Shown here: one piece after another, positions 2,343 to 4,845 of the stretch
Position numbering within the stretch: position 1 is the stretch's first letter
Layout: each line of letters opens with the position of its first letter
Virus record (IMG/VR): IMGVR_UViG_3300042569_001514
Span: 1-37,200 of that record
DNA length: 37,200 bases
DNA from: a virus
Reading direction: 5' to 3' (one strand)
Translations under genes and position numbers: made by a program
Notes under the pieces: generated by a model
Seen by the model: only the letters and a program-made list of their open reading frames with translations
What the model was told of the DNA's origin: nothing
Database searches by the model: none

Positions 2343-2563
2343 GGCAATACCTCGTCACAAAATTTGTGTGCGCGACTTGCGGGAACAACTTGGAGATTTC
2401 AAGCAAACCCTTCACGGGGTTGGCTCGGTATGCCGAAGGGGAGCCAAGCGGGGCCTACAAGCACGAAAGCGTCATACAGCTTGAGCCGTGCGAAAACTGT
2501 ATGCGACCCCTTGAAGACATGCGGCGGGCAGCGCGAACGCTGCTGGAAGGCGGTGCAGCATGA
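2339..2563 (+). CDS. Small zinc-ribbon-like protein (74 aa)
   Basis: The start comes from the ATGA overlap with the previous gene. Two CxxC pairs are visible, CATC near residue 11 and CENC near residue 52, giving a four-cysteine treble-clef or zinc-ribbon pattern. About 38 residues separate the knuckles. Such small zinc proteins in phage early operons often bind nucleic acid or host proteins, but nothing here identifies a target. The C-terminal LLEGGAA repeats the ending of its neighbour (KAEGGAA), a hint of local duplication at gene junctions. Confidence 0.7.
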   Translation: MRQYLVTKFVCATCGNNLEISSKPFTGLARYAEGEPSGAYKHESVIQLEPCENCMRPLEDMRRAARTLLEGGAA

Positions 2564-3117
2564 GCGCAAAGCGCTATTCAGCCGCCTACGGGCTGACGCT
2601 GGATCAGATCATGGCGCAGCTGCACCAGCAGGCGCTGGTGGTGGAATGCGGCGGCTGCCTGGTGTGGCAGGGGTCTGTCAGCACCACGGCGGGCAGCGGC
2701 AAGGTGGGGTCGCCAAAGTGGCGCGGCACCAGCCTGCGCCGCTTGCTGTGGGAAAAGCGCACCCGAAAAACCCTGGCGCGTGGCCGCCTGGTAACGGTGG
2801 CGTGTGAAACCCCGCTATGCGTGGAACACCTGCGCACCACCGACAAGGCCGGCACGGCCTTGCGCGGGTATGCCAGCGCCGATGTGCGCGCCAAACGCAC
2901 CCTCATCAACCGGCGCACGGCCCGGTCCATGCCCTGGTGCAAATTGTCTGAAGAAAAGGCCGCCTACATTCGCGCCAGCGATGCCAGCGGCAAAGCGCTG
3001 GCGGCTGAGCTGGGCGTGCATCCCACCCTGGTTTTCAAGGTGCGCCAGGGCGTTGCCTGGCCAGTGATCCAGCCGGGCGGGCTGTTCAGTGGGCTGCTGA
3101 TGCGGGGGGCTGCATGA
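2560..3117 (+). CDS. HNH-like protein with C-terminal HTH (185 aa)
   Basis: Residues 30-100 follow the plan of phage HNH proteins: a CGGCLVWQG entry, an Arg-rich middle, then VACETPLCVEHLRTTD, similar to the usual V-x-H-x-C-(D/E)-x-P-x-C-V-x-P-x-HL box. The first histidine of that box appears to be alanine here, so nuclease activity is doubtful. Residues 125-170 (KLSEEKAAYIRASDASGKALAAEL then HPTLVFKVRQG) form a helix-turn-helix of the kind often fused to HNH domains. It is coupled on both sides by ATGA overlaps, including to the start of the alternative frame at 3114. It could be a DNA-binding protein derived from a homing-type nuclease. Confidence 0.65.
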   Translation: MSAKRYSAAYGLTLDQIMAQLHQQALVVECGGCLVWQGSVSTTAGSGKVGSPKWRGTSLRRLLWEKRTRKTLARGRLVTVACETPLCVEHLRTTDKAGTALRGYASADVRAKRTLINRRTARSMPWCKLSEEKAAYIRASDASGKALAAELGVHPTLVFKVRQGVAWPVIQPGGLFSGLLMRGAA

Positions 3118-4307
3118 CATGGCTCTACATACCATCGAACTGTTTGCCGGCGTCGGCCAGCTTGGCGAAGGATTGCGAGCCGGGCTCGGATATTTGGGCA
3201 TTGAGACTCGCGCCGTCTGTTACGTTGAGCGGGAAGCTTACGCGGCCGCAGTCCTGGCGGCTCGCATGCAGGAAGGCAGCCTGGATGCAGCACCTATCTG
3301 GAGCGACGTTACCACCCTCGACGCTGGACGCTGGCGTGGCGCAGTGGATTGCATCGTTGGCGGCTTCCCATGCCAAGACCTCAGCCTGGCAGGCCGACGC
3401 GCTGGGCTTGACGGCAAGCGCAGCGGGCTGTTCTTTGAAATTTGCCGCATTGCCGACGATTGCGGTGCGCGGCTCCTGTTTTTGGAGAACGTCGCAGGCA
3501 TCGCTTCTGCCACCTCCACCGTTGTGGACGAAGCCGAAGGCGAACTGCACGAACGCGCAGCTGCCCGCGTCCTGGGAGAACTGGCCGACCGTGGGTGGCA
3601 TGCGGAATGGGTCACTCTTTCAGCGGCCAGCGTGGGTGCCAGCCATGGGCGGGAGCGCTGGTTTTGCTGGGCGTGGCGAGCATTGGCTGACGCCGAACGT
3701 GCCGAACGGCGGGCGCTCAGTGTCTGCGGAACTGGTGGCCAGCAAGGGCATGACGGAGGACGGCCAGAAACGCACTGTGGGGCTGGAAAGCCAAACGAAG
3801 CACTGGGCCACACCAAACGCACACGACGGGCGCAGGCCGGCGGCGGATTTGCACAGCACCCAGGGCGCGAACTTGAGCCGGAATGCATCGAAATGGGCCA
3901 CACCCAACTGCAACACCAGCACTTACAGCAACGGGAAGATGGGGCCGGACATTCGGGAACAGGCCAGCAACTGGCCGACGCCGAATGCACATGTGATCGA
4001 ACACAAAAGCAAACCGCCCATTGTGGATGGAACGCGCAAGCCGAGCGATCCGCAGATCAGCAGTGCCGACATAGCGGTACACCACTTTTCGCCACAGGCC
4101 CAGCCGACCCAGCTTGGGCAAACATCATCCAGCACCACCCACACCTCGCCCCGGCGCTTGAACCCAGCTTTCACCGAGTGGTTGATGGGCTGGCCCACCG
4201 GATGGACGATTGCCGCCCCCAGCGCCTCAAGTGCTGCGGCAACGGCGTTGTGGCGTTGCAAGCTGCGGCAGCAGTTGTGCAACTTGTTCAGCGCGCCAAA
4301 GGAATGA
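3114..4307 (+). CDS. Alternative-frame ORF overlapping the methyltransferase (397 aa)
   Basis: This frame is open for 397 codons, +1 relative to the methyltransferase frame and almost coextensive with it. Its ATG, not the methyltransferase's, makes the ATGA overlap with the previous stop (3115-3117) that links most genes in this operon. The translation contains four W-x-TPN phrases (HWLTPN, HWATPN, KWATPN, NWPTPN) and ends near residues 349-365 with LNPAFTEWLMGWPTGWT. As I recall, that phrase recurs in annotated phage proteins and resembles motif IX of cytosine methyltransferases. Either it is a second protein, or it is a conserved shadow of the methyltransferase, or parts of both are used by frameshifting. 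Whether it is expressed is unknown. Confidence 0.35.
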   Translation: MTWLYIPSNCLPASASLAKDCEPGSDIWALRLAPSVTLSGKLTRPQSWRLACRKAAWMQHLSGATLPPSTLDAGVAQWIASLAASHAKTSAWQADALGLTASAAGCSLKFAALPTIAVRGSCFWRTSQASLLPPPPLWTKPKANCTNAQLPASWENWPTVGGMRNGSLFQRPAWVPAMGGSAGFAGRGEHWLTPNVPNGGRSVSAELVASKGMTEDGQKRTVGLESQTKHWATPNAHDGRRPAADLHSTQGANLSRNASKWATPNCNTSTYSNGKMGPDIREQASNWPTPNAHVIEHKSKPPIVDGTRKPSDPQISSADIAVHHFSPQAQPTQLGQTSSSTTHTSPRRLNPAFTEWLMGWPTGWTIAAPSASSAAATALWRCKLRQQLCNLFSAPKE

Positions 4308-4315
4308 CAGCATGA
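3119..4315 (+). CDS. DNA (cytosine-5) methyltransferase
   Basis: This enzyme would transfer a methyl group from S-adenosylmethionine to C5 of cytosine in a specific DNA site, probably to shield phage DNA from host restriction. Visible motifs are motif I (ELFAGVGQLGEGL, residues 7-19), motif IV with the catalytic Cys85 in GGFPCQDLS, motif VI ENVAG (123-127), motif VIII GASHGRERWF (173-182), a long H/Q/G-rich variable region as target-recognition domain, and motif X GNGVV (374-378). The length of 398 aa is normal. Its stop overlaps the next start (ATGA at 4312-4315). No restriction enzyme gene is visible nearby, so it looks like an orphan methyltransferase. The second open frame over the same DNA is listed separately. 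Confidence 0.9.
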   Translation: MALHTIELFAGVGQLGEGLRAGLGYLGIETRAVCYVEREAYAAAVLAARMQEGSLDAAPIWSDVTTLDAGRWRGAVDCIVGGFPCQDLSLAGRRAGLDGKRSGLFFEICRIADDCGARLLFLENVAGIASATSTVVDEAEGELHERAAARVLGELADRGWHAEWVTLSAASVGASHGRERWFCWAWRALADAERAERRALSVCGTGGQQGHDGGRPETHCGAGKPNEALGHTKRTRRAQAGGGFAQHPGRELEPECIEMGHTQLQHQHLQQREDGAGHSGTGQQLADAECTCDRTQKQTAHCGWNAQAERSADQQCRHSGTPLFATGPADPAWANIIQHHPHLAPALEPSFHRVVDGLAHRMDDCRPQRLKCCGNGVVALQAAAAVVQLVQRAKGMTA

Positions 4316-4845
4316 CCACTCTGCACCACCTTAAGCGGATGAAGCAGCAACAGGCTGCCCGAGCATTTGCCATGCGCGAGGGCGGTTTCAACAATGCCAT
4401 GGCTGACGCGCAAAGCCGGGCCGCAAAGTTGCTGCACCGCGAGCTGAAGGCCATCACCGAGCCCATGCGCCACGCTGTCAACCAGGCGCGCAAAGGCCTG
4501 CTGGTTGAACGGCAGTGGCTGGTGCTGTGCAGTGCGCTGAACGTGGGCCAGGCGATTGAGGCGGGGGGCGTGGTGCGCGGGCTGACGGCCCAGCTTGACG
4601 CTGCACACGATGCGCTGCAAGCGATCAATGACAGGGCCACCGCGAACGAAACCCGCCCATGGAAGCAGCCCACGCTGTACGCGGCGGAAATCGACGCCAT
4701 CAACACCCTGGTGACGGTGCACACATACCAGCTCAAACAGGTGAGCTACGGCGAATACCAGGAAGCCTGGCGGCTGGCCACGGCCCGCGTGAAGTCAGCC
4801 GGGGGCCAGGTCATTGCGAGCGAGCCCATCGTAATCAGCGTTTGA
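4312..4845 (+). CDS. Hypothetical protein (177 aa), mostly helical
   Basis: The start at 4312 is fixed by the ATGA overlap with the methyltransferase stop. The protein is rich in Ala, Gln, Arg and Leu, with several amphipathic helices (for example RAAKLLHRELKAITEPMRHA and GLTAQLDAAHDALQAI). I see no membrane segment or catalytic motif. It is the last coupled gene before a 77-bp gap that precedes dUTPase. The placement suggests an early helper protein, but I do not recognise a family. Confidence 0.75.
   Translation: MTTLHHLKRMKQQQAARAFAMREGGFNNAMADAQSRAAKLLHRELKAITEPMRHAVNQARKGLLVERQWLVLCSALNVGQAIEAGGVVRGLTAQLDAAHDALQAINDRATANETRPWKQPTLYAAEIDAINTLVTVHTYQLKQVSYGEYQEAWRLATARVKSAGGQVIASEPIVISV

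Follow-up and report, generated by a model that had tools for sequence, protein, structure and literature searches.

A phage locus with two co-extensive reading frames very probably encodes both subunits of one C5-cytosine DNA methyltransferase

Does a phage methyltransferase gene that stays open in two frames encode one protein or two, and, if two, do they act together? The question is raised by a 37.2-kb virus record (IMGVR_UViG_3300042569_001514; G+C 64.5%), referred to here as the window, in which integrase, terminase, portal, tape-measure and primase genes are also present. Two plus-strand ORFs, hereafter alpha and beta, are co-extensive over ~1.2 kb: alpha (P0002, 3119..4315) encodes 398 aa, and beta (P0001, 3114..4307), in the +1 frame of alpha, encodes 397 aa. 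Both begin with ATG, and the paired starts, ATGACATG (3114..3121, plus strand), lie 5 nt apart. An earlier sequence-only reading had described these two frames of about 400 codons, and both ORFs were found where it had placed them; it offered dual coding, a frameshift pair or a shadow as explanations. The ATGA couplings that it reported are also present: at 3114, the beta ATG overlaps the TGA of an upstream plus-strand ORF (2560..3117) with weak similarity to HNH endonucleases (phrog_1872, E=2.5e-4), and at 4312, the alpha TGA overlaps the ATG of a downstream plus-strand ORF of unassigned function (4312..4845). Very probably, alpha and beta are subunits of a heterodimeric C5-cytosine DNA methyltransferase, both specified by this one stretch of DNA. 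The earlier reading overlooked how the frames are connected: they resemble two subunits of a single enzyme rather than unrelated phage proteins.

Alpha carries motifs I–VIII and X of a C5-methyltransferase large subunit. The motifs previously read in P0002, namely I (ELFAGVG), IV (GGFPCQD), VI (ENV), VIII (GASHGRERWF) and X (GNGVV), were confirmed; the protein matches phrog_29583 (E=2e-112) and Pfam PF00145 (E=3.2e-28, residues 4–188 only), the latter with motifs I, IV (PCQ), VI (ENV) and VIII in place. Residues P84, C85, E123 and N124 are invariant in alignment A2. The catalytic domain (residues 1–190, 3119..3688, plus strand), which contains motifs I, IV, VI and VIII and overlaps the N-half of beta, is modeled with pLDDT mostly 80–97. 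It is followed by a stretch without a small domain (residues ~208–373, 3740..4237, plus strand) that is mostly disordered in the model, with pLDDT <50 at residues 208–326, 342–365 and 369–373, and then by a modeled C-terminal helix bearing motif X (residues 379–397, 4253..4309, plus strand). An HMM of this C-terminal region recovers motif X in homologues, and the last part of the phrog_1008 profile, which matches P0001, matches motif X of P0002. A small domain, consisting of a recognition region and motif IX, was not found in the alpha chain: the PF00145 match ends at residue 188, and the structures of M.HhaI and M.HaeIII match alpha over about 186 columns only. As modeled, alpha is a C5-methyltransferase without a small domain, in which motifs I–VIII and motif X are joined by a region predicted to be disordered.

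The C-half of beta carries a different set of phrases. Its putative target-recognition region (residues 155–345, 3576..4148, plus strand) contains four W-x-TPN repeats (WLTPN, WATPN, WATPN and WPTPN) and is followed by LNPAFTEWLMGWPTGWT (residues 349–365, 4158..4208, plus strand), the candidate motif IX; all five phrases had been noted from the sequence and were recovered here. Over part of the motif IX DNA, the alpha frame reads RVVDGLAHRMD. Residues 155–372 of P0001 match phrog_1008 ‘DNA methyltransferase’ (E=1.2e-16), a profile that 49/49 aligned betas also match. Family searches gave no Pfam or NCBIfam match for beta, a PDB search returned no match to P0001, and no HNH family was among the P0001 matches. 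The beta model is poor (pLDDT 53, pTM 0.24), its best part being the last 57 residues (341–397, pLDDT about 70–87), and a fold search matched it to no solved structure. A profile of the beta C-half recovers the in-frame recognition region of single-chain methyltransferases, and the beta recognition region is homologous to their VIII–IX segment. The earlier proposal that LNPAFTEWLMGWPTGWT is motif IX gains support from single-chain homologues, where it follows motif VIII and precedes motif X in the same frame. The whole segment is part of the one reading frame in single-chain enzymes and sits on a second gene in split mycobacteriophage enzymes; by homology, the beta C-half is therefore the part missing from alpha: the target-recognition region plus motif IX.

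These comparisons place the locus among several known arrangements. The single-chain actinophage enzymes DillTech15 gp66, prophi91-1 gp16 and MelBins gp5 contain alphaN, betaC and alphaX in one ORF, with the same parts as the window locus (catalytic domain, PTP-repeat recognition region, FxEWM motif IX and motif X); they differ in having everything in one frame, and their +1 frame is interrupted by stops. M.AquI and the split mycobacteriophage methyltransferases (Wizard007 gp76/75, Camperdownii gp76/75 and Anthony gp80/79) share with the window locus a division into two polypeptides that breaks after motif VIII. In the mycobacteriophage pairs, the second gene lies in the +1 frame and carries betaC and alphaX. 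The second subunit of M.AquI and of the mycobacteriophage enzymes has motifs IX and X together, whereas the window locus keeps motif X in the alpha frame. In motif division the window locus resembles M.EcoHK31I (YGGCCR), also a C5-methyltransferase of two polypeptides, a resemblance drawn from motifs, not sequence. The M.EcoHK31I small-subunit gene overlaps the large-subunit gene in another frame, and its beta has 176 aa. In the window, beta is 397 aa long, starts 5 nt before alpha and overlaps all of it, and no restriction enzyme was identified beside the locus. In M.EcoHK31I, motifs I–VIII and X are on the large subunit and motif IX is on the small one, as in the window locus, but the predicted recognition domain is assigned to the large subunit (PMC3404938), whereas it falls on beta in the window. 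By analogy, the window locus would work like M.EcoHK31I, the differences being a full-length beta and a recognition region on beta. The phage ShiLan also hides a second frame in a methylase gene, as an out-of-frame HNH insertion (PMC11855218); there it is an inserted homing endonuclease, whereas the window overlap spans the methyltransferase itself, and P0001 gave no HNH match. No description of phage cases of this overlap was found among the open-licence papers searched.

In the proposed scheme, ribosomes would start at ATG 3114 for beta or at ATG 3119 for alpha. Alpha would fold as the catalytic domain, with the AdoMet site, the PCQ cysteine and ENV, and would supply the motif X helix through its disordered linker. 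The C-half of beta, read in the +1 frame, would supply the target-recognition region and motif IX, which are the parts found between motifs VIII and X in a monomeric C5-methyltransferase. We infer that beta is translated and associates with alpha as one working enzyme, in which the methylated sequence would be set by beta; the enzyme probably serves as an orphan phage methyltransferase that protects phage DNA. Motif division, together with the single-chain and split homologues, makes two subunits of one enzyme the most likely products of the locus.

This scheme requires that the second frame be coding. In the window alone, at 64.5% G+C, an open second frame is only mildly unusual, with one stop in the +1 frame where synonymous codon shuffles give 4.4 (p about 0.03). 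The comparison was extended to 35 non-redundant loci (<70% alpha identity), with expected stops taken from synonymous shuffles that hold the methyltransferase protein fixed. Only loci with two or fewer stops in the +1 frame entered the set, a mild selection since only three loci of at least 95 bits (L012, L041 and L050) had 5–6. Across these loci, the +1 frame has 3 stops in ~11,900 codons against ~154 expected: none in the 6,084 codons of the beta N-half (97.4 ± 7.0 expected) and three in the 5,820 codons of the C-half (56.4 ± 6.3 expected). The +2 frame stays close to expectation, with 188 stops against 217 expected over the N-half and 257 against 247 over the C-half. Relatives with low GC3 (0.42–0.46) have no +1 stops over 387–506 codons, where 7–9 are expected. 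The beta start codon is ATG at 30 of the 35 loci and GTG at the other 5, mostly at −5, −2 or +4 nt relative to the start of alpha.

Conservation of the beta protein points in the same direction. Among pairs with <50% alpha N-half identity and with alpha held fixed, beta identity is.220 over the recognition region against.139 in the synonymous null, and.498 against.224 at residues 346–375 (motif IX); because the pairs are related and not independent, their z-scores are read as direction, not probability. With beta held fixed, alpha is also constrained over the recognition region and at 346–375, so the alpha middle is not wholly free. Between close relatives, C-half substitutions fall on alpha positions 1/2/3 at.41/.26/.33, compared with.23/.13/.64 in the control, a pattern in which the wobble position of beta changes most.

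The N-half of beta is a different matter. Control methyltransferases without beta show no C-half identity excess over the null, but they do show an N-half excess, and the extra similarity of the beta N-half was accordingly dropped as evidence of function. A conserved W-L-Y near the beta start overlies the alpha residues that immediately precede motif I, and we do not treat it as specific to beta. Controls (L054–L080 and L121) also avoid +1 stops in alpha codons 60–190 (1 vs 8.8 and 0 vs 15.2 expected). Because of this avoidance and the N-half excess, the case for the beta N-half rests on codons 9–60, where the overlapping loci have 1 stop against 13.2 expected and the controls 19 against 21.8 (no avoidance), and on the start codon. 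Among these same controls, +1 open stretches of 138–247 codons occur in 10 of the 11 tested, and in three cases the +1 ORF matches phrog_16143 ‘DNA methyltransferase’ (E about 1e-28). A combined reading seems unlikely, in which the beta N-half is itself a functioning protein part, so that functional sequence is specified by both frames over the full 1.2 kb, and in which the stop avoidance of the controls in codons 60–190 reflects a second layer of coding shared by many C5-methyltransferase genes.

Three other explanations were weighed against the two-subunit enzyme. One is that P0001 is an untranslated shadow, kept open by base composition and conserved through the conservation of alpha; the only mildly unusual count in the window and the stop avoidance in codons 60–190 of methyltransferases without beta both speak for it. 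A shadow fails to explain the stop deficit across the 35 loci, the open frames of the low-GC3 relatives, or the C-half conservation above the synonymous null with its codon-position pattern, and other methyltransferases contain this segment in frame. The sequence-only reading had named two observations that would point to a shadow: homologues with an intact methyltransferase and a broken alternative frame, which are almost absent in the clade, and substitution patterns without constraint in that frame, whereas its C-half is constrained. On this comparative evidence P0001 is not a shadow ORF, and we regard that explanation as exceedingly unlikely.

Of the explanations offered by the earlier reading, dual coding is the one supported. 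Programmed ribosomal frameshifting would fuse the alpha N-half to the beta C-half into a single-chain enzyme, and the order of parts does match the single-chain homologues. However, the open beta N-half and the conserved start would be superfluous, yet both are present, and without a second shift the fused chain would have no motif X; we judge this very unlikely. Beta could also be a phage protein with a task of its own, such as a regulator or an anti-defence factor, and no methyltransferase subunit, an idea that draws on its length of ~400 aa, its N-half without assigned function and the lack of Pfam or NCBIfam matches. This is highly unlikely given the uniform phrog_1008 matches of the betas, the presence of motif IX, the existence of single-chain and split homologues, and an alpha without a small domain. 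Counted against the two-subunit reading itself were the poor beta model with no matching structure, the constraint on the alpha middle, and some metagenomic contigs with indels that break the alpha/beta scheme. At L009, L010, L082, L012, L051 and L059, a shift in both frames places motif IX or X on a different ORF; these apparent transfers were not given weight, since indels or assembly errors may lie behind them.

Sequence comparison indicates that this overlap is shared by phages and prophages from several bacterial phyla. P0001 aligns with Acidovorax phages Alfacinha1 and 3 at 47% and 40% identity over 98% of its length, and P0002 matches them in two pieces (60% covered). Scans of viral contigs retrieved 77 loci with P0002 and 27 with P0001. 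A bacterial-genome scan with the beta alignment gave 337 relatives, and among the best 80 of these an alpha overlapping in the same relative frame is present in 80/80; the scan was seeded with overlapping betas, and the frequency of stand-alone betas is not readable from its result. A quick tree of catalytic domains places 44 of 57 non-redundant rows in one branch (98% SH-aLRT), 42 of which have the overlap, the two others being L012 (frame shift) and L040 (contig ends early). The branch includes genomes or bins of Pseudomonadota, Myxococcota, Armatimonadota and Planctomycetota, although bin taxonomy may be imperfect.

At the recurring loci, one of the two proteins is usually unannotated or misnamed. 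Among the phage methyltransferases that now appear in annotations as a single gene or a hypothetical protein, many may be two-subunit enzymes. If so, cloning either ORF alone would give inactive protein and wrong specificity calls, and gene callers that forbid long overlaps would lose one subunit. A long co-extensive same-strand overlap whose partners are known and which a deep clade has preserved would also make dual-coding evolution measurable.

Individual loci illustrate the range of arrangements. In Alfacinha1, the CDS called ‘cytosine-specific methyltransferase’ (gp46, 3004–4137 of locus L001) is the beta frame, and the true alpha (3006–4118) is unannotated. Synechococcus phage Ssp-JY39 (L114, 1721–2836) and Pseudomonas phage phPA-G (L116, 1879–2607) have beta alone annotated, as a hypothetical protein, with the alpha of the other frame missing. 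A shorter beta lies in the +1 frame of an intact alpha in SG4 gp64, Paenibacillus phage Bloom and others. On the Paenibacillus polymyxa plasmid pAP1 (L205, 1817–3307), the beta frame, inside one long alpha ORF, shows a motif IX phrase twice, as LNPTWVECLMGFPLDWT and as LNPAWVECLMGFPLGWT, which looks like a duplication of the segment.
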